Positions 3,268 through 46,083 of a stretch of DNA of 48,589 nucleotides are shown piece after piece. Within the stretch, counting starts at the first letter, position 1. Every line of letters begins with the position of its first letter. The notes under the pieces are model-generated. The model was given only the letters and a program-made list of their open reading frames with translations, was not told the DNA's origin and made no database searches. The position numbers and the translations under genes were made by a program. Source of the stretch: a virus; IMG/VR virus record IMGVR_UViG_3300009181_000008, positions 1 to 48,589 of that record; one strand, written 5' to 3'.

Positions 3268-4197
3268 ATGGACAATGATCCATCACAACTGGCTGCGCTC
3301 GTAAATGGCTCAGCTGGAGCAATAAATGGAGTTAGGCCACCCAATGCCAACATCCCGTCGTACAATGACATCGACATAGCCACGGCTATAAGCGGGGGGG
3401 ACAAGGCCATGGGTATGGCTAGGCTGCTTAGCAGGAATGATAATTTCTCGAAGCAAAAAGACCAATTCATGGCCGCCCAAAGGCAGCAGGCCATTCAGCA
3501 GAATGACCCAATGTTTCAGGCTCAACAGTTCTACAGCCAAAGTGGCAACTTGGGCGCAGCCATCCAGATCGGCAAGTCAAAGGGTTCAGCCTTATTCGAG
3601 CTTGGTCAGGAAGTAAACTTGGGCAGCTTTGGGTCGTTCGCTATAGCCCCTAAGGGCAGCGTCATGGAACAAGGGCCGCAGGGCTCTATGGCCGTACCTG
3701 CTAGATACTCAGCCGCGCGAAGGGGTATTTCCGTTGTGCCCTTTACCGGGGGTGACGAAAACGCCGACGCCTTTAGGACTAGCATGGGCGACACTCAGAG
3801 GATCATGGGGCTCCTAGACAGGCTTGATACTCTATACGGAGAAAGCGGATACATTGGCCGGTTGTCTCCGACGATGAGGTCTGCTGAAGCAGAGGCCATC
3901 GAGAGCCAGCTTGTCACCGGAGTGCTTAAGGTTCTAAATGGGACAAAGAGTTTGGCAGGCGTCTCAGAGGGAGAGATGAATATGGTCATGGGAAGCATCC
4001 CAAGGTCCGCGTCTACTTGGCTTACCAACGGAAGGGGAAACGAGCGCGTAAAGCTCAACAAGCTGCGCAACGATTTGACCAACGTTTTACTTAGGGCGGC
4101 AGACTCGAATGGCATTGAATTAGTACCGATAAGGAGGCAGCCTAGTCCCACGCGTCAGGGTGGAGCTAGCGCCACCCCTAGCGGAGTATCTTTATAA
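3268..4197 (+). CDS. Putative internal virion protein (309 aa)
   Basis: Family not recognised. The ATG directly follows the stop of the upstream gene, and its own TAA overlaps the ATG of the giant gene by one base (TAATG), so expression of the two is probably coupled. The N-terminal 100 residues are Gln/Asn/Met-rich, the middle is Gly/Ser-rich, and the C-terminal half is predicted helical. There is no cysteine. Coupling to the giant gene suggests the two products act in the same particle or the same ejection step; that is inference. No enzymatic motif was found. Confidence 0.55.
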   Translation: MDNDPSQLAALVNGSAGAINGVRPPNANIPSYNDIDIATAISGGDKAMGMARLLSRNDNFSKQKDQFMAAQRQQAIQQNDPMFQAQQFYSQSGNLGAAIQIGKSKGSALFELGQEVNLGSFGSFAIAPKGSVMEQGPQGSMAVPARYSAARRGISVVPFTGGDENADAFRTSMGDTQRIMGLLDRLDTLYGESGYIGRLSPTMRSAEAEAIESQLVTGVLKVLNGTKSLAGVSEGEMNMVMGSIPRSASTWLTNGRGNERVKLNKLRNDLTNVLLRAADSNGIELVPIRRQPSPTRQGGASATPSGVSL

Positions 4198-7100
4198 TGG
4201 ACCAGCCCACTTCCTCTTCTCCTGAAAACGAAAACCCAAATGCTGATCTAGACGTCCAAAGGACGAGAGATATGATGGCGTTCCTTGGGCAGGGGGGCAC
4301 CAGAGTTGCGCCGGTTGCGCCGAAGTTTGAATTTGAGGACGCTGCCCCACAGGAGACTTCGTCGTTTAATCCTAACGCCATGACCGGCAAGGATTACTTC
4401 GAGTTCTTCCAGCAGAATAGGTCAGCTAGGTTTAACCATGACGCGCAAGGTCGTCAGGCATTCAAGCTGATGGCTGAACATATGGATCAGCGCAAAGTTG
4501 ATTTCCTTGGCTCGGCCGAGATGGCAGTGGGCCAGATGGTTGAGGAGCTTGGAGGCATAACAGATGCCCCGCTTCACCCCGGAAAATTTGCAGCAAGTAC
4601 TGCTGAGTCGGCGGCAAAGGGTATACGCGACATGTACGGAATATTTGCCCAATCGGAGGACCCTCAGAGCGCTTTCTTTAAGATCAAAAGCTGGGCAATG
4701 CGTGTGGCCGGAAAGGACGACGGAGACATTGACTCCCAAATGCGTCAGTTTCACGAGGCTAGGGAGTTTAATAATCGCTCCTATGAGCACATGGAGGGCA
4801 AAAGCAGTATCGTTGGAGACATGCTCCCAGAAGGGTATGGCCACATGTTCACGAAGCTCGTTGAGCCCAAATTTGCTAACGCTCTTTCGTATGCCGTTTT
4901 AGATATCCCTGAGATTGTCCTTTCAAGCGGCATGTCTACACCGGGAACTGCCATTAAGCTTGCGGCGCTGCGAGCCCCCAAGGCGGCGGCCAAGGGTGGT
5001 GTGTTTGCGGCTTGGTCGGCTAGGTCTGCAGAGCGACTTTCTAACTACGCACAGGTGATGGGCGGCAAGGCGCTGGAAGCAACGGGCGCTGTCGTTAAGG
5101 CTCCATTCAAAGCTATTTACGGAGCCAGCCAGTCTGCCGCCCAGCTGGGTGGAGATTTCGCTGGCAATGCAGTCAGGAATTTGGCTACCGCAGAGGTCAT
5201 CGAAGCTGGCGCTGAGCTTGTTGGCGGAACCGTTGTAAGGCATCCTGCCATGGGCTTCTTGCGAAGCTTCGGCCTTGAAGCGTTTGGAGAGCTGGCCCAA
5301 ACGGCCGGAGCCGACATTGCAGACAGGGCTCTTGGCCGTGTTAGCGTAAAGATGGATACGCTTGGTGCCACTACGCTTGAGAGACTTGCGGCAGGCACCG
5401 CGAAGGGAGCCGACGTCATGTCGCGTGAGGCACAGCTGCTCGCTAAGGGTATCAACGCCTCTGTCGGTTGGGCTCCTAGCCTTTCTGGTCAGGCCCTTAA
5501 GACCATGTTCCGTGATGGAATTATTGGCGCTGGCCTTGGCTGGGCTAACTCTGGAGAAGAAGGCGCCGGCATGGGCCTTGGCATGGGCATTGGATGGGGC
5601 GGCCTATCCGGAAGTGTCAGGCACCTACACGCCTACACGCACTACACCCATCAAGATGAGCGTGTCGTCCAAAACTTTAATCAGTTCGTAGCGCCCAGCT
5701 TCGCCAGAATACATGGCGCAACCGCCGGAGAGATGGCTCGAAGGTTCGGAGACCACGTCCAGTCGTTCGGCGACCTTAGGACTTCTGCGATCGAAATGTC
5801 GCACCTTTCGACACTTGTCGCCCATGAGACCGGTCTATTTGGCGAAGGCAACGTCATGTTCTTCTTCGGCAATAGTGCGGCTGAGTTCGACAAGATGCTC
5901 TTGGACTCAAATGTCAGGCCGGATGATTTTGCTACGCTGAGTAAGGAATTTTTAAACCTTCAAGACAACCCGGCGATGATGTCCGAGGTGACGCTCAACA
6001 ATAAGGCCGTCAAAAGGATAATAGCCATAAACTCTGATGCGTATCGTCCTACGTCAGCGCGACATGAGATATCCCACCTGCTTCTAAGGTCTGTAGCAGA
6101 AGCGAATGGCGACATGGACCACGTTTACTTTGCTGACCCGTTCACTGGGCAGAAGAGGAGTGCCGGCAGGGTGTTCAGCCCTAGGTATCTATCCACCATT
6201 TACGGCGCCTCGAAGGATCTAGGAATGATGCCAGACGTGGCTTGGAGCGCCGCCCTTCAGCAGTACGTAGCTCAGATAGAACACAATCAGTCCTACGCGG
6301 AAGCTGACCAAGCGGCCGTTTACGCGCGCGCTCAGGCTTTTGGCGTAGAAGCCAAGGACCATATAGCTAAGTTCCGCGATCTGTATAATAGCGGAACCTT
6401 AGACATGAGGGACCTAGATCATATCGCTATCGTCAAGACCATGACGCTAGTGGCAGAGGAAGCGTATGCGTATTACCAATCCGCAACCAGCAATGTGTTT
6501 GCGGTAGACAAGTACGTCAAAGACCCAGCAGCTAGGAATATGCTTAGGGCTTGGGCAGAAAATCGAGCAGCCTCTAACAATAGCCGGATACTTTCCGACC
6601 TTGAACTGGCCGGCGTTGAGCTTCGCGGCAAGCTCATCAACCCGGATGGCAGCGCCAAGCTGTTTGACGATCAGGGCAACCCAGCCATGGAGACCATGGT
6701 CTATGACGACGGCAAAGTGCTAAGGCTCAAGGCCATGGACTCTTGGATCGAGCAGACCATGAAGTCTGCATACAGCCGTGGAGAAGTTCACGTCTCATCC
6801 ATGGATCCGATGCGTCAGGCGGCACTGGCTAAGACTTCCGGCAAGGAGCATCTATTTACGGCCATATCTAACGGCGGGATGAAACTCAAGACCAAGCAGG
6901 AGCTTGACGAGTTGTCTTTGGATCAGTCCAAGAAGATAATCGGAGCCATAGGACAGCTGCCTGAAAGCGTTAGGCCGCTTGTGCAAGTTGGAGCCGATGG
7001 AACTCAGCGTCTCATACTTGAGCAGATGAACGGAGAAGGCCTTGAGGCCCTTCGTGCGTCCGGAGCATTCACGGACCGAGAATTTAATGAACTGATCGGA

Positions 7101-10100
7101 ATGATAGAGATAGCCAAACGTGGCCGCGAGGGTGTGCCTGCGTTTAACGTCATGAACACGACCCTGCTAGCTCACAGCATGCAGGTAAGGCGTGGAGCTG
7201 CGGTCTTTAGGCTCAGGGGTGATGACGTTCCGGTGACCTATAGGACCTTCGTGCCTCTCAGTGTTGAGGTGTACCTCAAGACTCATGATGTTAATGGAGA
7301 CCCGCTAAGGACCCCCAAGGGTGGCGTCGTTATCCACTCACTTGACGTGGCCGCAGAGAACAGGCGTCTCACCAAGATGTTTAAGCGCGGAGACGTGCAG
7401 CAGTTGTTTAGTGGTAACTTTGATGACTTTGTCAGGGTCTATCAGGACTATGTGATTAACCAGTCCGGCCTTAATGGGCCTAGGGTGCCCTCCGCTGAAC
7501 TGTTCAAGCCTCGCTTTGGTTCCGACGCTGAGCGCGTTAGGGACATCATGTATGAAACCTTTGGTGGCCGTAAGCCAAAGGACGCTCCGTTCATCAACAC
7601 TCCTTCCAATGGATACATGGGTGGAGCCGATGACACCAACAGGCCGTTCTACACCATGCGTTTTGACACCATGGCTGACACTAGGCTGCACCCGACGTCG
7701 TGGAACGCCCGGTCTAACCTTCCCTTATTCCCTTACGTGCCTTCCGCCTACGAGGGCATCACTAGGAATATGATGGTGTCTGGCTTCCAGAAGCTCCCGC
7801 TTACCGGCGGCGCAAGCTTCCTGCGCGACAGGAATGGGTTTGAAATCTATCAGGGCAAGAAGGGCTTTAACTTGTTCGACATGTATGGCATCAAGGTCGG
7901 CACGTTTAGCAGCATCAAATCAGCGATAGCCAAGGCTGCTAAGGATATCGGCAAGTATGACGAGGCGGACATACTCCCTGCCGAGGAGGGCCACACTGTG
8001 GAGATCAATGGCAAAACCGAGGAGCTTCTCTTCCCTTCCACGCCGGTGTTCATGCTGCACGGAGTCAGGGACAGGGCTCACTCTATACTTAGCGCCAACG
8101 CCAAGGTTCCCGACTTTAGCGTAAGTGAACAGGTCTTATCCAGTATCGTCGGCTTCGAGTACAAGCTCGACCAAGCCGGAAGACTGGTCGACTCGTCTGG
8201 CACTGTCGTTCCTGATCAGGCGGCTGCAGCGAGGAAGGGCTTTACCGTAAAGGCCGGACAAGCGATACCCGGAGCAGGCTTTAAAGAAACCGTAAGAATA
8301 GGTATTGGACAGGCCTCGGTTACTACAGACTTTGAGGCCCTCGCCCAGAATGAAGCCGTAAGGGTTTCTCCAACTTGGCTAAGAGCACTTCACGCCATGC
8401 CCGGAGGAAAAGATATTGCAGACAGGCAGATGGCCATACGTCTAGCTATAGCAGAACATGTATCTAGGGGCTTTAGGAATGGTGAGCTGCAAATGCCTTC
8501 GGTTAACTCCCGGCAGACGTCTAACAATTTCGCGATCATTGCCGATGCTATGCCGGTTGATGGAGCAGACTTTCAGCGCATCGACTCCGAGATAGACAAG
8601 TGGCTTCTCGCGCAGAAAGCAGATATCAACAAGATAGCCGACCAAATAGATGGGGTATTTGGGATATCTGCGAACGGAACCAGCGCGATATTTCCACTCC
8701 ATGACGTAGGCAGCGGAAATTATGTCCCTGATAGGGTGATACACGCAGCTCACGGCGTTGTGATAACGCCATCGTTGATGGCTTACGCTAAGGCATACGG
8801 CCCGGCCAAAGCTGCGGCAGCTGGCGGCGCCGGTACCATTGAGCTTATAAGGGCACACGCTGAAATGACCGGAGAAGGCGAGCAATCAGTGGTCATTCAG
8901 GCGAATAACGTGCGAGAGTTTCAGGCGCTAATTGGTAATGGCGGAATTCCAAATGAGTGGCTTCAGCACCATGAGACAATGACCCCGGGCTTTACGGCAG
9001 CATTTCAAGCCTTGTTGCCAATCATGGATCAGGCGAAAAACCCGACATCGGCGGCGGCGTCTGGCTCCCGTGGTAAAGTAAGCATGCCGCTTGCGCACCC
9101 TGACGTAAAGTTACACATCAAAAAGTATATAGACGACACAAGGTTCGCGGCGTCTCAGGATGGGCCTTACAGGAAGACTATTACCTCAGAGGTCGGTAAA
9201 GATGGAAGGCTTAAGCGGAATGAAGCAGGCAAGAAAGAGGGAGTATTATTTACCGCGCTGTTAAATATTTCTGACCCGAGGATGGAGAACTTCCTATCTC
9301 ATGAGTCTATATATAGGGCCATAGCTGTTGCGTCAGATGAGAGTAATTACGCCGGGCTTCCGGCCGGGACTAGGGCCTCGGACATGGCTAAGCTCCAGCT
9401 GCTCATCCACGGGATGCAGAGCGATGACAATGTATTTCACCACGAGATAAAGACTACCGCCGAGAGGGAAATCGGGATCCGGGGAACGCGAGAGCTTGGC
9501 GGTGGACCTGTCCCTGTAGGGGGGTCATACGGTATTTATTCTGGAGCCCCATCCCTATCCCCAATGTCCGGGGCTCTAGAATTAAAAAATGGCGGAAAGA
9601 TATCAATACAGCACAACGTAAACCATCAGACCCCGAGAAGGTTTCGCGAGGTTATGGAAAGCCGTGGATCAATGATTAAGGATGGGGTCCTGACTATTAT
9701 TGCTGGAGAAGATAAGACTAAGGCGATGACTCAAAGTATAGCGAATGCGTCATACATACTTAGCACTTCATCGGACTCTCGAATGAGAGGGGCGTCCGGG
9801 ACGGCAAAGGTAACCGTTTCTCCAACCAAGATGACTGGGCTCACAGATGGCGCCCAAGTCCCCGGAGATACTTTTTACAACCCCGGAGACAGGGCGATTA
9901 GCCCTATGGCGTTTGGGTTGGCAATAAAAACTAAGAGCTCCTCAGGGATCCCTAATATGGTCAGGGCCGCGCATGACGCCGGCTACACGTGGCTCGGGAA
10001 GCATATGTCAAAAGCCGACGTGTCTGACCTTAGGCCGTTCGTTGAACAGATTGCGCAGATAGCCATAAGCACAAGTGGGGACTGGAGGATTGCTGACCCT

Positions 10101-16100: not shown

Positions 16101-19100
16101 GTGACGCCTGACCGTACTGGCAGGTCCAAGCTTTCCTCTTCCGTGATGAGGACTGCAATGGTTGAGTCTATTATAGCTGAGCTAAGGAAAGAAAATGCAA
16201 AGACCATAGACATAGCTCCGGCCGGCCACCACCTGTCGTACATAGGAGCAGATCCAATGATGCTGGCATCAGCCACGCAGAGCGAAGCCATCAAGGACAT
16301 CACGGCTACATGGAATAACAAGGGCCTTAAGGGTATAAATAGAACCCTCCAAAGCGGTTACAGGCACGGGAACTCAATGGGTGACGTCGTTAATGCGAGC
16401 GTTGTTACGCACTCTCTTTATAGCGATCAGGGCGGCCCGTACGGCCAAAATGCACCCAGCCACGGATTAGGACAGAATGCTGGCCCTGACCAGCTCGGCG
16501 AGTTTGCTCCTAAAAAGGGGTATGCTTGGCAGCGCCTGCCTGATGGCAGGATAATGCTCAATGTCACCGGTGACCATCTCGGGTACAAGCTAGACCATAA
16601 GCAAATCACTAAGCGCCGGCCCGGCTACGGCTTCAGTCTCATAGAAGGCCTTGGATGGGATCAGCAGAATGGAGTCCTGATACCAATGCGTATCAACGCT
16701 CACGTCGGAATTGCCGACATGCTTAGGACCATGAAGCATCCTCTTGCAGCGATGTATGATCACACTGATCCAGCTATAGTTGGTCAGCACATACGAGCAG
16801 CTGCGTCGTCAAATCGGAGGAACTTCCATGAAACGCGCGGCAATTTCCAGCCAATGACTGGTTCGTTTAGCGCAGCAGGAGACGCAAGGCTAACAAAGGG
16901 CATAAAAGACTTTGCATTTATATCCGGCTACTTGGCGGATAACGCCATAGATCCTATGGTCAAAGCAGATGCGGCCGCGCAGCTTAATGGTCACCAGTCG
17001 GCGAATGGATACGCGAGCATTATACTTCCGGCCAACGCCACTCCAGATGACATCAGGAGCGCTGTACTTGCGTTGCACATGGAGCCGGTCATTGGCCTGT
17101 CGTTAAGCCACATGTCTAACCACTCCCGCAGGTATTCGCACCTCGAGTTCACCGGCGACAACGCATATTCAAGCGGCCGGTCCCTGCCCACTAGGAATGG
17201 CATATCTCCGTCTACTGAGGGATACAGGTATTCCTTTAGGGGGTCTATGCCCGGACGACTTCCTCAGGAAGTCCTCAAGGGCCTTATGGACACCACCATG
17301 ATGCTTAGCCCTACTCTCATCGACGACATCGATGTGATGATCGGCAAGATGTCTGGCGGTGAAAGCGGCTACTTCCTCCCTGACTCCGAAAGGATACTAT
17401 CCATGAATGGAGACACTGGCCTATCCATTGCGTCCATGTTCCCGGGCAGGCCCGACTTGTTACGATACTCTTGGGACTCCAAGAATATGCACGGCATCAA
17501 GGTCTGGAAGCGCACTATTCCTAAGGGCGCCGAGAGGTACCATGCCCACGTCGTCCAGTTTGAGGCACCCATGCAGTATGAGGCTGAAGGGGGCCTTAGG
17601 ATAGGGCCTAAGTCGATTGCGTTCAGGACGCCGGAAGAAGCTACGGCATTCGCAAACAGGGTGTCCGTATCCCGAAGTGGCGCCGATATAGCAAAAGCCC
17701 TCGCCGCCGGAGACGTCGAAGTCGTTAATGGCGCCGATACTCCCACGAGTCCGTTCATGCCTGAGGCTGACGTCAGGAAAGGCGTGTTTATGAACGGCCA
17801 TGAGCTCACCGCAATGGAGAACTCTGCCCACTTCGTTGGAGACATGGACACTCCAATGGATAGGAAGTCTGCTAAAACTCTTGGTGCTGCCCTTGGATCG
17901 AATAAGCACTTGAGGTTCTCGCCCGGAGAAAGCCTGATGATGGTCGGAGGCAAGTCTATGGATGAGCTTCAGGACTTGGTTAGGTGTAAGCTTAATTTTG
18001 GATCCCCTCGCGGAACCATGGAATTCGCCTCCAAGGCAATGAACGCCATCATACATGGCGCCCTCCCTAACACCCAGAAGCTTGAGGCCATGCTTGGTGA
18101 AGACTGGTTCAAGGTAATGAAGAAGGCTGGCGTTTCCGGGGAAGAGATGAGGCAGACCGGGCTTGCTGCTCTATTCATAGGAGCTAAGACAACTAAGCTG
18201 ACTAGGATGGATGTGGCAGAGTTTATGGCCGCAACCATACCTATGTTGCGCAGGCACGACCTTAGTACCAGCAACGACCTAAAGCTTTCTGGAATACTCG
18301 CCATGGGCGGCGGACTCGAAGGTGGAGACAGCCCCCACAAGCTTAATGGCGGTTACTTAATGCCATACATGCCGGACAGCGTCCTACAAAGCAGGATAAA
18401 CCAGCATCAGGCTATATCTGGAATAATCGGAAGCTTAGAAAGGCTGGAGCTTACCCACAGGGCTCTTCTTGAGGCCGGCAATGTCAACTCGGAGTCGACC
18501 CTCAATGCTATTGCTGCCACCAATAAAGTGCTTCTCTCTTACGCCAGAAAGATAGGCATGGATGAAGAGGCGATTGCGAACAAGGGCGCGTCCGAACTCG
18601 CTACGTTAATCCAGACTAGGATCGAAACGCTAGCAAAGAAGACCCACACCGGCGGCGACACTTTCGGCAACCTAAATTACACTGGCTTAGAAAACGTAAG
18701 GCTTACGTTGAATGACCACATCTCAAACATAAGGGCTCTTCAAGATGTTAGCTCTATGGTTGGTGGCGTCATGCCTGAGCTGGTGCTTCCATTAAGGCAG
18801 CTGCATAGCGAATTCATGATGGGCTCTCCTGCCATGGAGCTCCCAACAAGGTTTGCCACTGGGGCTCCTTATGGATGGTCGGCTGGCACAGTTAATAACG
18901 GGGTCGAAGACCTTACCGGCCAAGTCATCAGTGGCCACTATAACAAGTATTGGGGCAATTACACCTCTGGCTACCAGCACGTTCAGACCCAAGCTGCCGT
19001 CAGGTTCGGGGATAAGTACGCAACTGAGCAGATTGATGGATACCTTACCCAGCTTAGGGCAACAAATGTTGCCGAGCTGCGCAAGGACACCCCCGACAAA

Positions 19101-22100
19101 GGTCTGATCGAAAGGAATGACCTGCTCATCGCCACTGCTAAGAGAGTTTTAACCGTCAGAAATGCCTTAAGGAGCATTATGAAGGCGAACTCAAGCACTG
19201 GCCACTTCGCTAGCATGTTGCCCGGCAATAACCCCAACCTCGGAGGCGCGTCGGGCGTTCATGAGATAGGGCATTCTCGCTTTAGCCAATCGCTTGCCGT
19301 TTCCGGCTTATCCATCGAGGGCTTTGCTGATCCTCTCGGGTTTAGTGGTGCCATGTATACTGGAACAAGAGACTATGCTCTCACTCCTCTAGGCTTCCCG
19401 ATAACGCTGCTTGAAGAAATCCAATCCGACTTTGCGCAAAAAATAGAAGGAGTCGGCGTAGATAAGGACATGTCTATCTACCTTCCATTGAGCCCTGATG
19501 AAGAGGCCTCTCTGGCTGCCGTTCCTGAGTATGAAAGAATGGTATCTAAGGCTGCAGAACTTCGGGCTCTTGCCGAGTCGGTCACCGGGTTTGTCACGGA
19601 TAAGCTCGTGGTCTCGATGCTTACGCCCCGGGGCAACAGGAGCAGCGGCGTCGGATCGTCTGCTGCGTTAAACTTATTCCTAAAGCTTCAATTAGACCAG
19701 ACGGATATACTTAACAGGGGTATATTGGCTGTTCAGGTGCCCGGCTTGTTGAGGGGAACGGGGCGCGAGGTGAAAGCTCCAGAGTCACTTAAAGCAAGCT
19801 TGAGGGGCAAGTTCCAGCTCGAGCTGCCGGACAAGGTTCCGTCTATGGACTTTGACCATGAATTGATAGCCAAGATTGCAGAATACCAGACGTCAGGGTT
19901 CTCCAATGTTCCAGAAGCGGTTGCAGACTCCATAGCTAAAAGGCTCGCCGATAACATTCGGTCTACGGATCAGTGGAATAATTCTTTTGGCCGCAAGATA
20001 GGCGGACAGGGGACTGACGCCGCCATTGCTGCTGTGTCGAGAGAACCGCACCGTGCCATGGAAATGATAAGGCAGAACCTACTCCAGATCATGACTCGCG
20101 GTCAGGAGCAGATGCAAGAACAGCATGCCGTGCTTAAAAGCATAGCCACAGGCATGAGAAGCGCGGGAGACACCTCGGACCTGTCTGCGTTCGTGGAAGC
20201 CCTTGCGGACATAGCCGAAAGGCAGAAAGGTGACCTTGGTGCTTCGATAGGCTGCGAGCTTGCAGGAATGGCTATACTCGACGAGTCGGTTGCGATGAAC
20301 GTCGCAGCCTACGCCCGTGGCGAATATAAGTTCGACTACGAAACCATAGCTAGGTCTGCCTTAGAACGGATAAGGGCTAGGTATACGGACACCAAGACGT
20401 TCACCGGCAAGACTATCCTTTTAGCGTTCGAGGAGATGCTTAGGACTCCTGCCGAGGAGCGCCCATTCATATCTATTGCGGACGGCTTAAGCGAACCAAA
20501 GGAAGTAAGCGCTGTGTCAGATATGATTACTGACCTAGCTTCTACGTTCAGGACCAATGAGGGCACCTCACTTGAGATAGCCGAGAGGCTGATGACTGAT
20601 CCGGCGAACACCCTCCCGTCGACAATTCAGGACAACCTTGTTAGCATTGCTGAGTTCTTTGGCACCGGTGGTAACCTCTATGTCCAAAACGCCAACTCTG
20701 GTGGCATACTGTCCGAGGGCGGCAAGAAAACATACAGGGTATTCAGGTCTCTAGAAGAAGGCGGACACGAAAAGATGGCGTACCAGCTCTTGGCTCACCT
20801 CTTGGAGCGCGCAGGTGAAGGGCACGACCTGTCTAAAATTAATGCAGTCGAGGCTCAGTATCACAGGCACAACGGGTCGCTAGCTGGAGACTTCGTGAAG
20901 CAAGTTATTGAAGTCTATGCAGGCATGTCAAAGAGGGCGGAATATGCCATCGAGGCGCAGGCCATCGAGGCGCAGGCCAGAGAATTGAAAAAGACCATTC
21001 CGGAAGTGGGAAGCTATAGGGATGATCGAATGGTTCCGGCCACCTTGCCGTACGCTGGAGAAAACTCCTACAAGTCCATGCAGTTGCAGATGTCTATCGT
21101 GGACTCGATGAACCGAGGCCAGCGAGGCGTCGGAATAATGGATGCAAGCTGGCAGCTAACCCGTGGTCATGGACTTAGTGAGTCAGCAACGGTCGGCCTA
21201 GGTATTGGAAAAAATAAAAGGATAGCTTGGATGCCCTGTGTCGATGGGCCGGGCTCTGCGATACAAACCGTGCTTGCCTGCTATGAAAGGATGACCGGTC
21301 TCAATCCTAACGAGGCCGGAGGCATAAATAATGGGTTTTTATTCAGGCTTGGCCAAATGGATGAAGCAGAGGTAAGGGCGGTAATGTCTGGAACGAATTT
21401 CGATCACGATGGCTCAAGTAAGAACCTGCATGGGCATATAATGCAGACCTTAGAGCTCATGCTTGATAGGATTAGGACGAACATATCGGAGGACTCTTAT
21501 CGCGCTATAGCTAAGGACCTTCTCGAGTTTGCGTCAGTAAAAGGAGTTAAGGACTTTAACTTCTCCATCAAGAAGGGGGCTGAACTTGGAGCAGCCTTTA
21601 TGGAGGGCAAGAAAAACCCAAATCACCCCAACTGGGGCGATGCCACAAAGTTTATAGCCAATGGAATGAAGGATGTGTCGCTTGCCACCATGCCGGCGCA
21701 CACCGGCTCTGGAGGATGGGGGTACATCACCAACTATGGCCTGCCGCAGCATAAGGCCGACATCATGATGGCTGGAACCAGTAAGCTATTCAGGTCTCAG
21801 TACTCGCTTGATGCGTTTGAGCGCCCAGCAATAACCGTTGAGGGCACAACGATGTCCATGTTTGACACTAAGAGTGGCAAGCTCATCGCCTCTGTAGACG
21901 TTAGGGATCCTGCACAGGTTAAACTGTTCCGTGAAAGATATCTGCAATCGTCTAAATACGTTGGTGGCAACTGGATGGTCCGAGCGTTCATTAAGGAGTG
22001 GGCGCCGGTTGGCGGTTATGTAGACCTTACTGTTGCCGGCTCTACTGCCCAAAATAAACCCGCCCTCGGCAACTTTGCTTGGGATGAGTCTGTTCATTCC

Positions 22101-23339
22101 TCTGCCACAATGGATCAGATTGTCGCCGCCGTGCGAAGGAAGTATGGAACCGGGGAGGCAACCATCCTTGATAACTCAGCACAGCTTAACACGCCCGAAT
22201 ACGCTGCTTCAACTAAGGCGATCGAGGCAGCTGGCGGCGTGACTTGGGGTGGAGAAATAGCTCCCCCTAAAAAGTTCACCATGGAAGGGCAGAGTGAAGC
22301 CATGAGGCAGCCTACTTCTACAAACGTGAACCCGCTTGCGCCGGGAATTATGAGAGATGGCAGGTCGTCATATGGCACCACTGGAAACCCGTCACACATT
22401 CGAGCGCTGGTCGCCGCCTTCGCAGGCTTTGCCCGAGACCCGGGCGCCGATGAAGTCGCGGCGTTTGCAGCCAGAATGAGAGACCCGGTCGTTACTACCC
22501 TCGTGCACACGCCAGAAGGCAGGACTAAAGAGATGGACGCTCAGTTCAGGCGCAAGATGTCTGAAGGCGTGTTCCTGCTTATGGCAGCCGGTGAGCGTCC
22601 TCGTGACGGAAAGATATCCCAGACTGGCTTCTCGTCTTTGATGTCCACCGTAAGGAACAGAGAAAACCAGCCGATAGTATATGCCAAGAACTTGCTCGTC
22701 GACAGGCTTGAGCTGCCGCCCCTAGACAAGGCCCCTTTCATGGCACCAAGGGACCCTCATGATATGCGTAGGCGAGTATTCGACAGGAGAATGGCTGTTG
22801 AACTAATGAAGGCAGGATACCCTGATACTCAGATTGGAGCCCATCTTGGCATCAGTCGCGAAGCTATATTTAATTTAAGGAGTAACGCAGGCATAGCCCC
22901 GCTTCCTGAGGGAGGCGTGAAAGGCCATGCAAACACCCCCAAAGGGCGTCCGTCGCCTAAAAAACTAAAACCTGAGGAAATTCAGCGCAGGATGGATCTA
23001 GTTCTTGAAGCGTTTAAAAAGACCGGCTACGCGCGCCCAGAGTTTGTAAGGCAGGGGCTACATCAAGTGACAGGCAGGCAGAATGGCAGGGGAATGGATG
23101 CGCTGCGCGCTTATGCTGAAAGCAAGGGCGTGGAACTGCCCAAGCGAGGGCGCCGGACAAAAGATCAAATGGCTGAAATTGCAGCTAAACGAAACGCATC
23201 CAAAGCGGCCGGAAGCAACCCGATGCCTAGTGATAGCTTGAGTGATCCTCAGCATCCTAATCAGATCAGACCCACCGAAAGCAGCCCCAAGAGCAATATG
23301 GCCAAACTAGAAAACACGGAGCGTGAAATGAATGAGTAA
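4197..23339 (+). CDS. Giant multidomain virion-associated polyvalent protein (6,380 aa)
   Basis: A single uninterrupted frame of 19,143 bases, about 39% of the genome, with an estimated mass near 690 kDa. Domains seen in order: an acidic, disordered N-terminus (1-60); an Ala/Gly-rich, membrane-active-looking region (225-475) with a glycine-zipper stretch at 440-475; a zincin-like segment with H623-E-I-S-H627 and a downstream Glu pair at 754-755; a second zincin-like segment with the sequence LFALYPGM near 2215 and H2300-E-V-Q-H2304; another HExxH at 3501; a segment with EEIQSD at 5073-5078 and IAWMP near 5675; and a C-terminal helix-turn-helix (6199-6232) followed by a basic GRP-containing tail. 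The second zincin and the EIQSD segments resemble domains of large polyvalent phage proteins. Only four Cys occur, none before residue 4597. The start overlaps the upstream stop (TAATG). A packaged, ejected effector is inferred. Confidence 0.85.
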   Translation: MDQPTSSSPENENPNADLDVQRTRDMMAFLGQGGTRVAPVAPKFEFEDAAPQETSSFNPNAMTGKDYFEFFQQNRSARFNHDAQGRQAFKLMAEHMDQRKVDFLGSAEMAVGQMVEELGGITDAPLHPGKFAASTAESAAKGIRDMYGIFAQSEDPQSAFFKIKSWAMRVAGKDDGDIDSQMRQFHEAREFNNRSYEHMEGKSSIVGDMLPEGYGHMFTKLVEPKFANALSYAVLDIPEIVLSSGMSTPGTAIKLAALRAPKAAAKGGVFAAWSARSAERLSNYAQVMGGKALEATGAVVKAPFKAIYGASQSAAQLGGDFAGNAVRNLATAEVIEAGAELVGGTVVRHPAMGFLRSFGLEAFGELAQTAGADIADRALGRVSVKMDTLGATTLERLAAGTAKGADVMSREAQLLAKGINASVGWAPSLSGQALKTMFRDGIIGAGLGWANSGEEGAGMGLGMGIGWGGLSGSVRHLHAYTHYTHQDERVVQNFNQFVAPSFARIHGATAGEMARRFGDHVQSFGDLRTSAIEMSHLSTLVAHETGLFGEGNVMFFFGNSAAEFDKMLLDSNVRPDDFATLSKEFLNLQDNPAMMSEVTLNNKAVKRIIAINSDAYRPTSARHEISHLLLRSVAEANGDMDHVYFADPFTGQKRSAGRVFSPRYLSTIYGASKDLGMMPDVAWSAALQQYVAQIEHNQSYAEADQAAVYARAQAFGVEAKDHIAKFRDLYNSGTLDMRDLDHIAIVKTMTLVAEEAYAYYQSATSNVFAVDKYVKDPAARNMLRAWAENRAASNNSRILSDLELAGVELRGKLINPDGSAKLFDDQGNPAMETMVYDDGKVLRLKAMDSWIEQTMKSAYSRGEVHVSSMDPMRQAALAKTSGKEHLFTAISNGGMKLKTKQELDELSLDQSKKIIGAIGQLPESVRPLVQVGADGTQRLILEQMNGEGLEALRASGAFTDREFNELIGMIEIAKRGREGVPAFNVMNTTLLAHSMQVRRGAAVFRLRGDDVPVTYRTFVPLSVEVYLKTHDVNGDPLRTPKGGVVIHSLDVAAENRRLTKMFKRGDVQQLFSGNFDDFVRVYQDYVINQSGLNGPRVPSAELFKPRFGSDAERVRDIMYETFGGRKPKDAPFINTPSNGYMGGADDTNRPFYTMRFDTMADTRLHPTSWNARSNLPLFPYVPSAYEGITRNMMVSGFQKLPLTGGASFLRDRNGFEIYQGKKGFNLFDMYGIKVGTFSSIKSAIAKAAKDIGKYDEADILPAEEGHTVEINGKTEELLFPSTPVFMLHGVRDRAHSILSANAKVPDFSVSEQVLSSIVGFEYKLDQAGRLVDSSGTVVPDQAAAARKGFTVKAGQAIPGAGFKETVRIGIGQASVTTDFEALAQNEAVRVSPTWLRALHAMPGGKDIADRQMAIRLAIAEHVSRGFRNGELQMPSVNSRQTSNNFAIIADAMPVDGADFQRIDSEIDKWLLAQKADINKIADQIDGVFGISANGTSAIFPLHDVGSGNYVPDRVIHAAHGVVITPSLMAYAKAYGPAKAAAAGGAGTIELIRAHAEMTGEGEQSVVIQANNVREFQALIGNGGIPNEWLQHHETMTPGFTAAFQALLPIMDQAKNPTSAAASGSRGKVSMPLAHPDVKLHIKKYIDDTRFAASQDGPYRKTITSEVGKDGRLKRNEAGKKEGVLFTALLNISDPRMENFLSHESIYRAIAVASDESNYAGLPAGTRASDMAKLQLLIHGMQSDDNVFHHEIKTTAEREIGIRGTRELGGGPVPVGGSYGIYSGAPSLSPMSGALELKNGGKISIQHNVNHQTPRRFREVMESRGSMIKDGVLTIIAGEDKTKAMTQSIANASYILSTSSDSRMRGASGTAKVTVSPTKMTGLTDGAQVPGDTFYNPGDRAISPMAFGLAIKTKSSSGIPNMVRAAHDAGYTWLGKHMSKADVSDLRPFVEQIAQIAISTSGDWRIADPADIAPIMAQLTERLEQVMPHEKVVFAEDIIVGMALSLAGTQPKQSGLNFKPVRGGGVNIVPKPAANLGRADAIAGMSKIAQAIHQADYIDGSVKSATNIKEKWLDYSKRSRDFLKSGAIELKTKEVPAGTSWQTDSVFMLAGKRAIERLDADRKDLLKDLGLLGRAKDVLGREFDYLEISDSRAKLLTDRFGGRAAMMAADGMTDPDAAIKAAVAEFAAGRFDGPAGLALVANANSNELALGQIFSHDELFALYPGMKSSKVTFELGAFGATYYGEGSFGRIEIGIGMLLRDELAAYDAEVGISSEYVGSYVEFKGTGGLSYDENLRRTIIHEVQHMVYHAEGWSQIWDWNLTDNDTGKFDVAEMRFAGPAALTRIEQMLGGTELTPVTDSFGPNIDAVFVSKLKHMQVETSRILSFDTASKTIRKADDDTATQAIERIIHAPLAAKMVRDVIPETIRWTQALDGTFHMLASSLRSQKDKLSIEAYNGAMEKLNSSADALSKFTSVITVLESELKAGTKTAHAASFELLNEIDQNRHFLMLEDPSWSALYAGMGGGFEHQLRTMAFRDKANLWRNLLEAHEDLGGRGGKMPGDWAQWHMVKIANAMGRMMYFAQPDELTARVTEARAGMSEQQLSKRNRYMPKADKEIAAAYNVGRYIAEVATTGAMRPFDDNLFMIGGAKGSEQFDANMFGGGTPNTFKLGMRMLARSSLLSHYINIRDVGSAMKVLTFSSRGWRIGVDGKPEFVFSMGRLQGADQWGRDTATAANQGISRIVNNAIDFYRDFEDPETLPDRAMALTAQPGEETRVAELNSVSEETVVKQNALEDLIRANRFVNPTDYDDNNGPGFGLLAGLSKDGVSVKIEDVAKALGATIAIDSLVTMQSPVLNAIHEGKVPLLMTGGGIADYLRIAGVDENGLELAKISQIDRQFAGIKLSAGELAELVAVLHDVPFESVLEAPLGAKAIAVQTAMADTQLPNKLRELNRGWLPSSTMATRMSTWVNEVLSGGQSQANTPLKSLLLANTTQRAGSGVMFLQSMLETHITLSWNGNEYLSKMLSADRFARIREKFLSHDTREMVFKQVQTLASSASSLDQRRNSERVLLAFSSRVEKLLMELTPLAEKVAERIIKSAEGDGSYAIELLGDIYGEAIKEAMKDVSAYSASDKDVSISEPGFAIRRGMDVRIGAGAQDVHALGNSYEKVAANSLGMTSGRANNSVMLPAFGMIGGATEAFSRTASGRARYLGMAGMSTAPVSGLDTFTGSFSKTTAREFVRGANLSAGPNYTGLSPDANGMMIGINMFGEPYTLTTNHNSDGAISITPEPFFTGIGQDLLNLGSTSRPGNMPNQITRSGLDPAVAAASDAANRLISMAKQLAEVIINQNQAHNLDIVSSAIYEAVSVDEGSSEIRRFVRSDPTIGRAYQLGDLSGDLLKAKALLAVAYEVADRPDMNVGIANFGVSIGFSRDWGYYSQGSSEISRNAGGYRPLSQTSVVRTHVTPEGRVVLTSAFEGLADSRDIRELRVIDAITGSGSVSAHEIAHKPTLGMMADWHASMNLFADNEHEFGVNNFEQAHEADLSVKSMGSRIGRVSEIGLTALKRIPMNHQFSTGFMKEVAYKYGSSWYARNLVETLTGETTMDIVIGRLKASGAGINLAASLESVLNEKQFFGTASKGMAANPDRSAFFQPLARYMWAAAATLGIRHFSDGIKEPHKSILLTMIARGDDTDAIKHFIANTPHVGFREGSVKFGKNTSHLDLSQIHSLAGNMMLKERLIPLLEATGVFRAEDIDLIRKHIDHATAFDPTSTGDIRHSGRVLDGYQRAIGERDVTPGHQTPADALRAFSNYKSGLLTSGMDLGDNGDGTAAVIDIMRGLASLEGRKPRFSMDATEGVKFIFPEQTGVDKAGVTDGFLGSYPASSYYAVASDTIGNPDIVANVNRGGRPHALGKGSEMNLDGTNRYYVRNAGASVIGYDPVTPEQGGALAAMMGVPVFSDFKYSVTPGLMTVTPDRTGRSKLSSSVMRTAMVESIIAELRKENAKTIDIAPAGHHLSYIGADPMMLASATQSEAIKDITATWNNKGLKGINRTLQSGYRHGNSMGDVVNASVVTHSLYSDQGGPYGQNAPSHGLGQNAGPDQLGEFAPKKGYAWQRLPDGRIMLNVTGDHLGYKLDHKQITKRRPGYGFSLIEGLGWDQQNGVLIPMRINAHVGIADMLRTMKHPLAAMYDHTDPAIVGQHIRAAASSNRRNFHETRGNFQPMTGSFSAAGDARLTKGIKDFAFISGYLADNAIDPMVKADAAAQLNGHQSANGYASIILPANATPDDIRSAVLALHMEPVIGLSLSHMSNHSRRYSHLEFTGDNAYSSGRSLPTRNGISPSTEGYRYSFRGSMPGRLPQEVLKGLMDTTMMLSPTLIDDIDVMIGKMSGGESGYFLPDSERILSMNGDTGLSIASMFPGRPDLLRYSWDSKNMHGIKVWKRTIPKGAERYHAHVVQFEAPMQYEAEGGLRIGPKSIAFRTPEEATAFANRVSVSRSGADIAKALAAGDVEVVNGADTPTSPFMPEADVRKGVFMNGHELTAMENSAHFVGDMDTPMDRKSAKTLGAALGSNKHLRFSPGESLMMVGGKSMDELQDLVRCKLNFGSPRGTMEFASKAMNAIIHGALPNTQKLEAMLGEDWFKVMKKAGVSGEEMRQTGLAALFIGAKTTKLTRMDVAEFMAATIPMLRRHDLSTSNDLKLSGILAMGGGLEGGDSPHKLNGGYLMPYMPDSVLQSRINQHQAISGIIGSLERLELTHRALLEAGNVNSESTLNAIAATNKVLLSYARKIGMDEEAIANKGASELATLIQTRIETLAKKTHTGGDTFGNLNYTGLENVRLTLNDHISNIRALQDVSSMVGGVMPELVLPLRQLHSEFMMGSPAMELPTRFATGAPYGWSAGTVNNGVEDLTGQVISGHYNKYWGNYTSGYQHVQTQAAVRFGDKYATEQIDGYLTQLRATNVAELRKDTPDKGLIERNDLLIATAKRVLTVRNALRSIMKANSSTGHFASMLPGNNPNLGGASGVHEIGHSRFSQSLAVSGLSIEGFADPLGFSGAMYTGTRDYALTPLGFPITLLEEIQSDFAQKIEGVGVDKDMSIYLPLSPDEEASLAAVPEYERMVSKAAELRALAESVTGFVTDKLVVSMLTPRGNRSSGVGSSAALNLFLKLQLDQTDILNRGILAVQVPGLLRGTGREVKAPESLKASLRGKFQLELPDKVPSMDFDHELIAKIAEYQTSGFSNVPEAVADSIAKRLADNIRSTDQWNNSFGRKIGGQGTDAAIAAVSREPHRAMEMIRQNLLQIMTRGQEQMQEQHAVLKSIATGMRSAGDTSDLSAFVEALADIAERQKGDLGASIGCELAGMAILDESVAMNVAAYARGEYKFDYETIARSALERIRARYTDTKTFTGKTILLAFEEMLRTPAEERPFISIADGLSEPKEVSAVSDMITDLASTFRTNEGTSLEIAERLMTDPANTLPSTIQDNLVSIAEFFGTGGNLYVQNANSGGILSEGGKKTYRVFRSLEEGGHEKMAYQLLAHLLERAGEGHDLSKINAVEAQYHRHNGSLAGDFVKQVIEVYAGMSKRAEYAIEAQAIEAQARELKKTIPEVGSYRDDRMVPATLPYAGENSYKSMQLQMSIVDSMNRGQRGVGIMDASWQLTRGHGLSESATVGLGIGKNKRIAWMPCVDGPGSAIQTVLACYERMTGLNPNEAGGINNGFLFRLGQMDEAEVRAVMSGTNFDHDGSSKNLHGHIMQTLELMLDRIRTNISEDSYRAIAKDLLEFASVKGVKDFNFSIKKGAELGAAFMEGKKNPNHPNWGDATKFIANGMKDVSLATMPAHTGSGGWGYITNYGLPQHKADIMMAGTSKLFRSQYSLDAFERPAITVEGTTMSMFDTKSGKLIASVDVRDPAQVKLFRERYLQSSKYVGGNWMVRAFIKEWAPVGGYVDLTVAGSTAQNKPALGNFAWDESVHSSATMDQIVAAVRRKYGTGEATILDNSAQLNTPEYAASTKAIEAAGGVTWGGEIAPPKKFTMEGQSEAMRQPTSTNVNPLAPGIMRDGRSSYGTTGNPSHIRALVAAFAGFARDPGADEVAAFAARMRDPVVTTLVHTPEGRTKEMDAQFRRKMSEGVFLLMAAGERPRDGKISQTGFSSLMSTVRNRENQPIVYAKNLLVDRLELPPLDKAPFMAPRDPHDMRRRVFDRRMAVELMKAGYPDTQIGAHLGISREAIFNLRSNAGIAPLPEGGVKGHANTPKGRPSPKKLKPEEIQRRMDLVLEAFKKTGYARPEFVRQGLHQVTGRQNGRGMDALRAYAESKGVELPKRGRRTKDQMAEIAAKRNASKAAGSNPMPSDSLSDPQHPNQIRPTESSPKSNMAKLENTEREMNE
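5520..5617 (+). other. Glycine-zipper segment of the giant protein
   Basis: Residues about 442-473 alternate Gly with Ala, Met, Ile, Leu and Trp (for example GMGLGMGIGWGG). Such sequences are typical of membrane-inserting helices in ejection proteins and toxins. It ends a 250-residue Ala-rich region and precedes the first zincin-like domain. A pore or membrane-anchor role is inference. Confidence 0.5.
6060..6464 (+). other. Zincin-like metallopeptidase segment 1 of the giant protein
   Basis: The frame encodes ARHEISHLLL (HEISH at residues 623-627). About 128 residues later comes VAEEAYAYY (E754, E755). HExxH followed by a distal Glu in a helical context is the gluzincin arrangement of zinc ligands. 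The spacing is longer than in thermolysin (about 20 residues), so the third ligand is uncertain. It could be a protease that cuts the giant protein itself or a host target; neither is shown by the sequence. Confidence 0.5.
10818..11140 (+). other. Large-polyvalent-protein zincin-like domain (segment 2)
   Basis: Residues about 2208-2313 read as a typical block of phage polyproteins: a helix ending LFALYPGM, a beta-rich GSFGRIEIGIG stretch, then IIHEVQHMVYHAEGW. In the established family this pattern (ELF..YP, then HE.QH....EGF) marks a large polyvalent protein-associated domain with a zincin-like active site (HEVQH at 2300-2304). Its biochemical activity in phages is not well established. Confidence 0.65.
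19260..19442 (+). other. EIQSD-type polyvalent protein-associated domain
   Basis: The region encodes HEIGHSRFSQ (from residue 5022), then a TGTRDYAL segment, then LLEEIQSDFAQ (EEIQSD at 5073-5078). The order [G/A]HxRF, then E[IV]QSD[WF]xQ, then further on IAW[TM]P (here near 5675) matches a domain common in very large phage polyproteins. The HEIGH here overlaps the xHxRF element and is probably not a zinc site. Confidence 0.6.
20946..20978 (+). repeat. 15-bp tandem duplication inside the giant gene
   Basis: The 15-base unit GCCATCGAGGCGCAG occurs twice in tandem (20946-20960 and 20961-20975) and is followed by GCC, encoding two perfect copies of A-I-E-A-Q. The in-frame, error-free duplication looks recent. 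Confidence 0.9.
22791..23160 (+). other. C-terminal helix-turn-helix and basic tail of the giant protein
   Basis: Residues 6199-6232 (AVELMKAGYPDTQIGAHLGI and on to SREAIFNLRSNAG) have the pattern of a homeodomain-like HTH: a helix, a Gly-containing turn, then a recognition helix starting SREAI. They are followed by a basic segment with PKGRPSPKK (about 6248), which resembles an AT-hook core, and later by KRGRRTK. DNA binding is predicted from the pattern; target and role are unknown. Confidence 0.6.
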
Positions 23340-25227: not shown

Positions 25228-25299
25228 TGGCCCTACTAGGAGTCGAACCTAGATTAAGCGTTTAGGAAACGCCTGTCCTATCCGTTGAACGATAAGGCC
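25228..25299 (-). tRNA. tRNA-Arg (CCT)
   Basis: A complete 72-base cloverleaf on the minus strand. The acceptor stem is GGCCTTA with TAGGGCC, the anticodon stem is GGCGT/ACGCT, and the loop TTCCTAA has anticodon CCT reading AGG. The T arm is CTAGG-TTCGACT-CCTAG. The discriminator is A and CCA is not encoded. It lies seven bases after the stop of the ERF gene, in the same direction, so it is presumably cut out of the operon transcript. AGG is one of the commonest Arg codons in several phage genes. Confidence 0.93.
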
Positions 25300-35263: not shown

Positions 35264-36118
35264 TTGGGAGCCAACTTTACATTCACAGGCCAGACGAATA
35301 ATCGAGCTGGCGGCGGCAGATGGTGGGATGACAATAGTCAGAATTCCTCCGGCCGCAATTACGTAGAAAAGCCCCAAGGGCCAACCGCTTCACCAATTCC
35401 CAAGCTGGCGCCCGAGCCGGCCGTAAAAAGGCCCGACCCTGAGCCGGAAGATACTAGCCCGGACACGGCCGAGGCCATGTACAAGCTTTTCCACGCCGAC
35501 GAGATATCGTTAAGGGCAAAGCAAATGGCGGAAGAGGCGACAGCAAACGCCAGATACAGGCAAGCCTTAGAAAATCAGCGGAAATCAATAGACTCGGTGG
35601 CTGGGCTCAGGGGCGCCTTCAATTCGCCGATCAACCAGCTAGGAGGCATACAGTCTCCGATCAATAAGCTGGCAGGATACCAGTCCCCGGTAAACCAGCT
35701 TGGTGGATTTCAATCCCCGATAAACGACTTATATAGCGGAAGCACCGTCCCGATATCTCGGATAGGAGATACCGTTGAGCAGCACATGCAGATTGCGGAA
35801 AATAGCGGCAAAAGGCAGCATAGTTACGCCATAGGAAAAAGGTACCGCGCTGGTAAAAATAAAAACAATGGCGTCCTTGCGGACGCCAGACGCATCGCGA
35901 TGGGCGACCATATGCCCGGAATGGGGATGTTTGTCGTTGGGCCGGCGGACTATAGCCAGTCTTTCACATTTAAAGGATCTCACCCGATGACAGGAGTTTT
36001 CACCGCCGGGAAAGCGGGACATCCAGCCGGAGTTGGTGGAGAGGATCCGATGAAGAGGTCTATGAATAGGTTATTCTGGTCAAGCTTCCCCGGGGGATCA
36101 GGAGGCTACTCTCCGTGA
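35264..36118 (+). CDS. Hypothetical protein with four 10-residue repeats, before the large terminase (284 aa)
   Basis: Family not recognised. TTG is used as start (MGANFTFTGQTNN), immediately after the preceding stop; no in-frame ATG occurs in the first 70 codons. Residues 1-75 are Pro/Gly/Asn-rich and disordered, 75-115 are helical, and 119-158 hold four copies of a 10-residue unit with core SPINQLGG. The C-terminal half is Gly/Met/Phe-rich. It overlaps the terminase start by four bases (GTGA). A head or packaging accessory protein is possible from position. Confidence 0.6.
   Translation: MGANFTFTGQTNNRAGGGRWWDDNSQNSSGRNYVEKPQGPTASPIPKLAPEPAVKRPDPEPEDTSPDTAEAMYKLFHADEISLRAKQMAEEATANARYRQALENQRKSIDSVAGLRGAFNSPINQLGGIQSPINKLAGYQSPVNQLGGFQSPINDLYSGSTVPISRIGDTVEQHMQIAENSGKRQHSYAIGKRYRAGKNKNNGVLADARRIAMGDHMPGMGMFVVGPADYSQSFTFKGSHPMTGVFTAGKAGHPAGVGGEDPMKRSMNRLFWSSFPGGSGGYSP
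35618..35737 (+). repeat. Four tandem 30-bp (10-residue) repeats
   Basis: Units start at 35618, 35648, 35678 and 35708 and encode FNSPINQLGG, IQSPINKLAG, YQSPVNQLGG and FQSPINDLYS. The DNA has diverged more than the protein, so the repeat is kept by selection on the peptide. Collagen-like or solenoid structure is not indicated; it may be a series of short binding motifs. Confidence 0.85.
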
Positions 36119-37755: not shown

Positions 37756-37757
37756 CC

Positions 37758-37964
37758 ATGATTACCGTGCCTGCGGGAACCCCGCCCCTGCTGCGCCTCA
37801 CAGAGGCGAACCAGATATTTAACCTTAGCAAGTCTACCCTTCTTCGCCTTCGGCGCAAAGGGGTGCTTAAAACGTACAGGACATCCGGAGGGCAATTCAT
37901 GTTCTACCGGGACGACCTGATCGATCATATTTCCAAAAACACCAATGGCGCAAATCAAGTATAA
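37758..37964 (+). CDS. Excisionase/MerR-like small HTH protein (68 aa)
   Basis: Residues 9-60 follow the excisionase-type winged HTH pattern: LLRLTEANQIFNLSKSTLLR, then RKGVLKTYRTSGGQFMFYRDDL, with the wing between the two strands. Such proteins bind DNA as architectural factors or regulators. It starts two bases after the terminase stop and overlaps the portal start by 20 bases, so it is coupled to both. No integrase exists in this genome, so an excisionase role is unlikely. Late-gene regulation or a packaging-linked role are alternatives. Confidence 0.75.
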   Translation: MITVPAGTPPLLRLTEANQIFNLSKSTLLRLRRKGVLKTYRTSGGQFMFYRDDLIDHISKNTNGANQV

Positions 37965-40191: not shown

Positions 40192-40194
40192 CCT

Positions 40195-40485: not shown

Positions 40486-40537
40486 GGACCATTTCTACTT
40501 ACGTCTCTGCGGACGTTAAACGCTGACATCCATCTAC

Positions 40538-41491: not shown

Positions 41492-41503
41492 ACCAAAAAG
41501 ACC

Positions 41504-42838: not shown

Positions 42839-42850
42839 TTAATCGAGGTC

Positions 42851-43189: not shown

Positions 43190-43190
43190 C

Positions 43191-44677: not shown

Positions 44678-44680
44678 TCT

Positions 44681-46080: not shown

Positions 46081-46083
46081 TTA

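Follow-up and report, generated by a model that had tools for sequence, protein, structure and literature searches.

Neither polyvalent proteins nor giant ejected proteins are new as such. Iyer, Burroughs, Anand, de Souza and Aravind (2017, PMC5512222) present phage polyvalent proteins as likely to be packaged, and state that the virion RNA polymerase (vRNAP) of phage N4, which carries such a metallopeptidase domain, is packaged unprocessed. The N4 vRNAP is described in PMC12633501 as an ejected protein of about 3,500 residues, each virion having 4 ± 1 copies. In phage SU10 (PMC9509320), the late operon ends with the genes of gp20-24, gp24 (1,473 aa) being the last before the strand switch, and gp20-24 are found in the virion and are gone from the genome-release intermediate. 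Phage phiM5 has three putative internal virion proteins, detected in particles, which end its structural cassette. Another giant protein is gp96 of phage P23-45 (5,002 aa; PMC10770324), a tape measure protein with a fused RNA polymerase. The new element here is a conserved member of 5.6 to 6.5 thousand residues in a clade of uncultured podoviruses, with several domains unnamed in the searched libraries; no description of this gene family was found in the open-access literature searched.

The window, i.e., the whole stretch of 48,589 bp that was analyzed (IMG/VR record IMGVR_UViG_3300009181_000008), contains a giant gene that takes up 19,143 of its bases (39.4%), the product having a mass of 690,716 Da (690.7 kDa) and a pI of 6.4 as computed from the translation. 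An earlier note, made from the letters alone, had described one unbroken frame of 6,380 residues covering about 39% of the genome, and this frame is real according to the ORF call, the simulations, and the relatives with the same frame. When the window was simulated 100 times by a first-order Markov chain with its dinucleotide steps, the longest stop-free run had a mean of 212 aa and a maximum of 316 aa. A 123-bp direct terminal repeat was found in the window, as expected for a contig assembled as a circle.

Relatives were reached through the major capsid protein of the window, which matches viral contigs at 51 distinct loci, and 21 of the large records among these were searched for giant-protein matches. 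Residues 1-1200 were matched in all 21 records and residues 5001-6380 in 19, in frames without internal stops; in the two records missing the latter match, the giant frame leaves the contig end. The search for homologous giant genes in other viral records suggested by the earlier note succeeded, with 14 complete, stop-free homologues of 5,615-6,459 aa (10 trimmed to a plausible start, three with the methionine as read, and one, G008, untrimmed). Together with the window they align as two groups with about 20% mutual identity, and the giant gene represents approximately 36-40% of the record in relatives of at least 46.7 kb. A second scan, with residues 560-1300, gave 34 loci and a third, with residues 4100-4760, gave 42. 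Fourteen loci from these later scans were resolved to 11 records, nine of which are matched by the N-terminal profile (one frame measures 4,341 aa, the other eight 5,303-6,340 aa); the remaining two probably fall short of the N-terminus, since their frames before residue 4100 measure just 1,554 and 2,340 aa. No relative of the giant protein was found by tblastn in 50,697 phage records, either for residues 1-2999 (E ≤ 0.01) or for residues 3401-6380 (E ≤ 1e-5), nor in two scans of the bacterial genome collection with profiles A5 and A9, so that the latter scans give no evidence of a prophage or host.

Conservation in the 15-member alignment peaks in the N-terminal 1,250 residues, mostly at 100-500 and 1000-1200, and other conserved blocks lie near residues 2100-2300, 4100-4200, 4400-4700, 5000-5100, 5600-5700, and 5800-5950. 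Fast-evolving stretches lie between these blocks, and much of residues 1300-2100 and 3190-4100 shows little conservation. Five pairs of relatives showed pN/pS below 0.8 in every 400-codon window (highest 0.77), whereas the single dN/dS value of two pairs was unusable because their synonymous sites are saturated. The idea that an assembly artefact has fused several genes, which the earlier note had raised against itself, is ruled out by the 14 complete stop-free homologues in other records and by purifying selection throughout the frame; the more distant relatives also have long stop-free frames, no point in support of a fusion was found, and its probability is practically nil.

The plus-strand genes extend from about 34.6 kb, across the circular junction, to 24.7 kb, and the giant gene is among the last of them (Table 1). 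The window is a podovirus-type genome with an SU10-like structural module. The stop codon of the 309-aa gene just upstream ends on the first base of the giant ATG, one base being shared, and a consensus scan, which left bases 36,501-48,589 outside, detected no plus-strand terminator-like site between 1 and 4197. Neighbouring genes were compared with three relatives, two of them represented by a partial genome. The 539-aa gene, two upstream of the giant gene, was found in none of the three, though its downstream neighbour is present in each, and its product has no Pfam or PHROGs match. In the gap between the terminase and portal genes, a 68-aa protein (37758-37964, plus strand) that is 94% identical in the nearest relative resembles, by eye, an excisionase-type HTH. 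The minus-strand early region encodes ERF, exonuclease VIII, a replication-initiator-like protein, and a DnaC-like loader. No endolysin was recognized in PHROGs scans of 28 of the 34 gene calls beside the giant gene, the weak holin match at 23332-23679 being the one lysis-related result.

Table 1. Coordinates of the giant gene, the domains of its product, and neighbouring features in the window, with the supporting matches or counts.
Feature	Residues of giant protein	Position in window	Strand	Support or remark
Candidate ejection protein by position, 240 aa		3..725	+	found in 2/3 relatives
Candidate ejection protein by position, 310 aa		710..1642	+	found in 1/3 relatives
Candidate ejection protein by position, 539 aa		1648..3267	+	found in 0/3 relatives
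Gene just upstream of giant gene, 309 aa		3268..4197	+	syntenic homologues in 3/3 relatives
Giant polyvalent-protein gene, 6,380 aa	1-6380	4197..23339	+	ATG to stop, frame conserved, purifying selection
Conserved N-terminal region, glycine-rich near 440-475	100-500	4494..5696	+	conserved in 15 members
ZIN1, HExxH at 623-627 and invariant E755	600-800	5994..6596	+	15/15 members
D950	950-1270	7044..8006	+	holds best conserved stretch of giant protein
ZIN2, metallopeptidase-like domain	2195-2610	10779..12026	+	HE[IV]QH at 2300-2304, E2310, E2585
Module copy M1	2850-2925	12744..12971	+	hhalign to M2
D4100, N-TGDHLGYK motif	4100-4200	16494..16796	+	15 members; 13/13 distant loci (found with a profile including this stretch)
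D4385, conserved domain ending in M2	4385-4700	17349..18296	+	13/13 distant loci (found with a profile including this stretch)
Module copy M2	4620-4690	18054..18266	+	hhalign to M1; matches other phage ORFs
EIQSD-type domain (GHxR ... EExQSD)	4980-5110	19134..19526	+	15/15 members
D5610, conserved domain	5615-5960	21039..22076	+	conserved; 12/13 distant loci
C-terminal HTH (HTH_23-like), optional extension	6193-6233	22773..22895	+	Pfam HTH_23
Hydrophobic segment, weak holin match, 115 aa		23332..23679	+	PHROG 6384 E = 0.033; KD19 1.86
Strongly hydrophobic segment, ends plus-strand operon, 366 aa		23639..24739	+	KD19 2.55; 3/3 relatives
tRNA-Arg (CCT)		25228-25299	-	early region
tRNA-Cys (GCA)		27290-27364	-	early region
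tRNA-Met (CAT)		32317-32392	-	early region
Terminase large subunit		36115..37755	+	PHROG 2 1.8e-16; PF03237 8.4e-9
Portal protein, SU10 type		37945..40191	+	PF23899 3.6e-8, 32.7 bits, cut-off 30
Major capsid protein, SU10 type		41504..42838	+	PF17236 1.5e-36, above cut-off
Collagen-like tail fibre, 27-bp tandem repeat		44956-46080	+	weak fibritin C-terminal match

This position among the late structural genes, where SU10 has its ejection proteins, favours a packaged protein with several tasks, and packaging followed by injection is the best reading of it. The giant protein was compared with 18 sequences (SU10 gp20-24, phiM5 28/29/31, Venkman gp43-46, and C75C1 proteins) and showed no significant similarity, the best rows being Venkman gp43 (0.0038, 5.0 bits) and SU10 gp20 (0.0057, 4.8 bits); in view of this, the argument for packaging is one of position. 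To our knowledge, the virions of these phages have no proteomics. A different explanation of the same position is that the protein serves in structure or assembly without being injected, e.g., as an internal core or tail-associated protein, and the strong conservation of the N-terminal 1,250 residues could reflect a docking or core region. However, ZIN2, the M module, and D950 are common to polyvalent-type proteins, as detailed below. Short-tailed phages have no long tail to measure, and a short tail is suggested here by the SU10-type module. On balance, a purely structural role is improbable.

The giant protein contains four HExxH motifs, a number reached in none of 300 shuffles (mean 0.19, maximum 3). 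Zincin is the name for this motif, and it fits the description in PMC5512222; a zincin-like site combines HExxH with a downstream glutamate located in a later helix. The zincin-like segments proposed by the earlier note held for the motifs at 623 and 2300, invariant in all 15 members, but not for HEIAH at 3501 and HEIGH at 5022, in which the first histidine is kept in two of 15 members, window included; these two are ruled out as metallopeptidase sites by their non-conservation. The motif and E755 of ZIN1 are placed in helices by the model of residues 560-1300. The ZIN1 domain was detected in nine of 13 more distant loci, none of which has its HExxH, suggesting that any ZIN1 activity is dispensable. 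Structural comparison of this part with VIA-align returned one endopeptidase, 9fma, against model positions 58-205 (Z 3.1, rmsd 9.7, 115 aligned).

The site of ZIN2 is far better kept, as H2300, E2301, H2304, E2310, and E2585 are invariant in the 15 members, and HExQH is found in 11 of the 13 distant loci, the remaining two not covering the site. Among the ORFs of eight annotated phage loci, the ZIN2 profile matched EBPR podovirus 3 gp3 (5.1e-17) and a 3,145-aa protein of ctsTn925 (4.7e-9), the latter match spanning the downstream motif with E2585, and the third-ranked hmmsearch match had an E-value of 0.046. EBPR podovirus 3 and ctsTn925 had been fetched for their ZIN2 similarity, so this test, not being blind, serves as a confirmation of the match. 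A short ZIN2 query from relatives against phage records also gave EBPR podovirus 3 (1e-4) and ctsTn925 (0.06), followed by three rows at E ≥ 4, and comparable EIQSD and D950 queries gave rows at E ≥ 1 exclusively. The ZIN2-bearing gp3 of EBPR podovirus 3 has 335 aa and is encoded early in its record (694-1701 of L131), among neighbours annotated as hypothetical.

A metallopeptidase domain in a giant protein also recalls a virion RNA polymerase, either of the N4 kind or fused to a tape measure as in P23-45. In addition to size and this domain, one row of the short ZIN2 query, rejected at E = 7 and 19% identity, fell in a gene whose annotation reads virion RNA polymerase. No polymerase profile of phage or bacterial kind was matched at E ≤ 1 in Pfam and PHROGs by six overlapping pieces of the protein, and the DxDxD motif is not conserved in the six members checked, which makes a polymerase very improbable.

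The invariance of the ZIN2 HExQH has a bearing on whether the chain works as one. It may be a polyprotein, cut by its own metallopeptidase domain or domains before or during packaging into ejection or effector proteins, in which case the full chain would never be the working unit. The long fast-evolving stretches that part the conserved blocks agree with this, as do the five separate ejection proteins at the equivalent locus of SU10, and self-processing by such metallopeptidases is proposed by Iyer et al. (PMC5512222). Against it, the same paper has the metallopeptidase-bearing N4 vRNAP packaged unprocessed, and none of the frames examined here is split into separate genes, contig-end cuts aside. 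Processing of this kind is rather unlikely.

The earlier note had also seen a membrane-active-looking region, which was not supported, as no transmembrane segment was found by hydropathy; the maximum 19-residue Kyte-Doolittle mean is 1.39 over the whole protein and 0.83 in the glycine-rich residues 400-480, and the 21-residue hydropathy mean nowhere reaches 1.5 in the giant protein of the window or in those of three relatives. Residues 100-500 gave no match in Pfam, PHROGs, or a PDB profile search. The structure prediction called for by the earlier note was applied to two regions, with different outcomes. An AlphaFold model of residues 560-1300 (32 sequences, mean pLDDT 68.6) matched eight viral proteins in BFVD at E ≤ 1e-3 with Foldseek (best 1.1e-19), comprising three proteins named large polyvalent protein, two named ART-PolyVal-like, one NAT_SF, one uncharacterized, and one nameless protein; the TM-scores, taken by query length, were 0.17-0.40, a low range that is usual when a multi-domain model has moderate confidence. 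The model of residues 4100-5135 (mean pLDDT 60.6), on the other hand, gave no viral match at E ≤ 0.001, the best being 0.015. Foldseek of the first model against the PDB gave nothing at E ≤ 0.001, and VIA-align reached Z 4.8 at most, mostly with Hsp70 fragments and WYL-type regulators. The WYL-type rows concern the D950 part: 7tb6 (Z 4.8, rmsd 3.6, 94 aligned) and 9fnd (Z 4.4, rmsd 4.1, 114 aligned), which we take to be WYL-type proteins, and 8tp8 (Z 4.5, rmsd 2.2, 81 aligned), a WYL protein by its entry title. A WYL profile is absent from the Pfam scan, so this likeness, which is below the trust level, is a lead only. With VIA-align, the second model gave mostly helical bundles over model positions 623-768 (best Z 7.6). 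Four PI-SceI entries were also aligned to D4385 (17487-17687, approximately residues 4431-4497; model positions 332-398) with Z 5.3-6.2, about 60 residues aligned, and rmsd 2.8-3.4, below the trust level.

Profile searches along the protein had also been suggested by the earlier note. The six overlapping pieces searched against Pfam and PHROGs gave a sub-threshold HTH_23 and otherwise chance-level matches, and no domain of the window's giant protein reached a curated Pfam cut-off, named polyvalent families included (LPD1, E = 0.15 only). PDB sequence-profile searches with profiles A1, A2, A3, A5, A6, and A7 found nothing convincing (best E 0.032), and the 15 members of A3 against Pfam, like those of A6 against PHROGs, produced weak scattered matches only. 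A birnavirus polymerase model matched by three of 15 members (best E 0.0097) was taken as chance.

Further links to other phage proteins come from the M module and the EIQSD-type domain. M1 and M2 are copies of one module, as indicated by hhalign (96.5%, E = 8.9e-10, against 6.2% for the best of 40 random control segments), and the M1-containing profile also finds the place of M2 in four distant loci. No third copy was detected in a sliding scan of 382 comparisons, the best score outside windows overlapping M1 or M2 being 22%. Loci with the EIQSDWH pattern number at least 80, and ORFs in 10 of the 80 listed were matched by M1 or M2 at E ≤ 0.1, with E ≤ 0.001 reached in four (best matches 1.7e-5 and 1.9e-5). 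The matched M always lies upstream of EEIQSDW, 120-381 residues apart, and the giant protein has M2 and EIQSD in this same order. One EIQSDWH phage ORF, L246, was also matched by D950 (E = 3.5e-5). Four EIQSDWH ORFs were scanned; ART-PolyVal was above the cut-off in one and below it in another, and two matched a PHROG named endolysin.

The EIQSD-type polyvalent domain recognized in the earlier note was supported by its EExQSD, kept in all 15 members; in the window, EEIQSD occupies 5073-5078, and the residues E, E, Q, S, and D are invariant. Among the loci from the third scan, 41 after a truncated one had been omitted from the 42, EE[IVF]QSD was found in 28 and EE[LT]QSD in 12 of the other 13, the frame of the last locus ending before the site. 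The EIQSD profile aligned with the listed EIQSDWH proteins (hhalign 93%, E = 3e-7, 34 columns) in a comparison that is partly circular, as these loci were picked by the motif itself, whereas the M-module and D950 matches are independent of the motif.

The C-terminal HTH proposed by the earlier note was found in the window as a sub-cut-off HTH_23 (E = 0.00017, 21.7 bits against a curated cut-off of 24.6), but it is not a core part of the protein. Pfam HTH models matched four of the 10 C-termini scanned, out of 15 members, at E ≤ 0.01; the scores fall below the cut-off for the window and the relative nearest to it, and exceed it for two members of the second group. G003-G005, of the window's group, have a similar C-terminal sequence by eye, and the two that were scanned had no Pfam match. 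The HTH tail has either been gained more than once or often been lost.

Taken together, we consider it reasonably probable that the gene encodes a polyvalent protein of giant size that is produced late, packed in the capsid as the largest ejection protein, and injected, its domains acting in the host. ZIN2, the M module, EIQSD, and the model of residues 560-1300 support this explanation by their ties to polyvalent-type phage proteins; a point against it is that a 691-kDa chain would need to pass through the portal. The giant protein would be made together with the virion proteins, packed probably with the small proteins from the genes just upstream, and ejected into the host cell at infection. 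There, ZIN1, ZIN2, D950, the two M copies, EIQSD, and the lineage-specific HTH tail, as a DNA-binding element, could jointly set up infection, with the ZIN2 site most likely cutting either the giant protein or some target in the host. Because the site of ZIN2, and not that of ZIN1, is kept in all the examined members covering it, cleavage of its own chain or of a fixed target in the host would be the most attractive activity. The data establish the gene, its conservation, the homologies of its domains, and its place behind an SU10-like structural module, from which we infer packaging, ejection, all enzymatic activities with their targets, and DNA binding. A bolder and unlikely proposal is that the one chain amounts to the whole ejection set plus early effectors, which would thread the portal, aid DNA entry with its N-terminal part, and release the effectors through a ZIN2 self-cut in the host, having been kept single over deep divergence.

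The phage must depend heavily on this protein, as two fifths of a genome of less than 50 kb are devoted to it and it has been kept down to about 20% identity. These phages could offer a simple system for how a giant protein is packed, passes the portal, and is used or cut in the host. D950, D4100, D4385, D5610, and the repeated M module, all unnamed in the searched libraries, may have anti-host or take-over functions.

Comparison with known systems showed different degrees of likeness. As in SU10 gp20-24, the giant gene lies among the last genes of the late operon, behind capsid and portal genes of the same kind; unlike gp24, its product is far longer than 1,473 aa and has no significant sequence similarity to it. 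In phage C75C1 (L064), whose portal is the nearest, a 2,769-aa gene spans the start of the record and follows the tail genes; its homology to the giant protein is undetectable. The 3,145-aa protein of ctsTn925 (MW202426) shares a homologous ZIN2 with the downstream second-glutamate motif, but it is half as long, and its gene precedes the terminase, unlike the giant gene, which comes close to last among the late genes. Gp3 of EBPR podovirus 3 (JF412296) also has a homologous ZIN2, but in a small protein. P23-45 gp96, by its description in PMC10770324, resembles the giant protein in being a giant virion protein that combines tasks, but belongs to a long-tailed phage. N4 vRNAP (PMC5512222, PMC12633501), from a short-tailed phage, is likewise a giant single chain that includes a metallopeptidase domain, and it serves as an analogue for packaging and ejection; by contrast, the giant protein is almost twice as long, has no detected polymerase domain, and accompanies an SU10-type capsid module. 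With the phage polyvalent proteins characterized in PMC5512222, single chains often longer than 2,000 aa, it shares very large size, several domains, zincin-like motifs, and a genome with portal and terminase; it differs from them in its 6,380 aa, its 39% share of the genome, its domains lying mostly outside curated families, and its being one unit clade-wide. With a large multi-domain chain of separate conserved blocks and two metallopeptidase-like domains, encoded by a phage with portal and terminase genes, and with ZIN2, M, EIQSD, and the structural matches as its polyvalent vocabulary, the giant protein fits the class of phage polyvalent proteins as an extreme variant.
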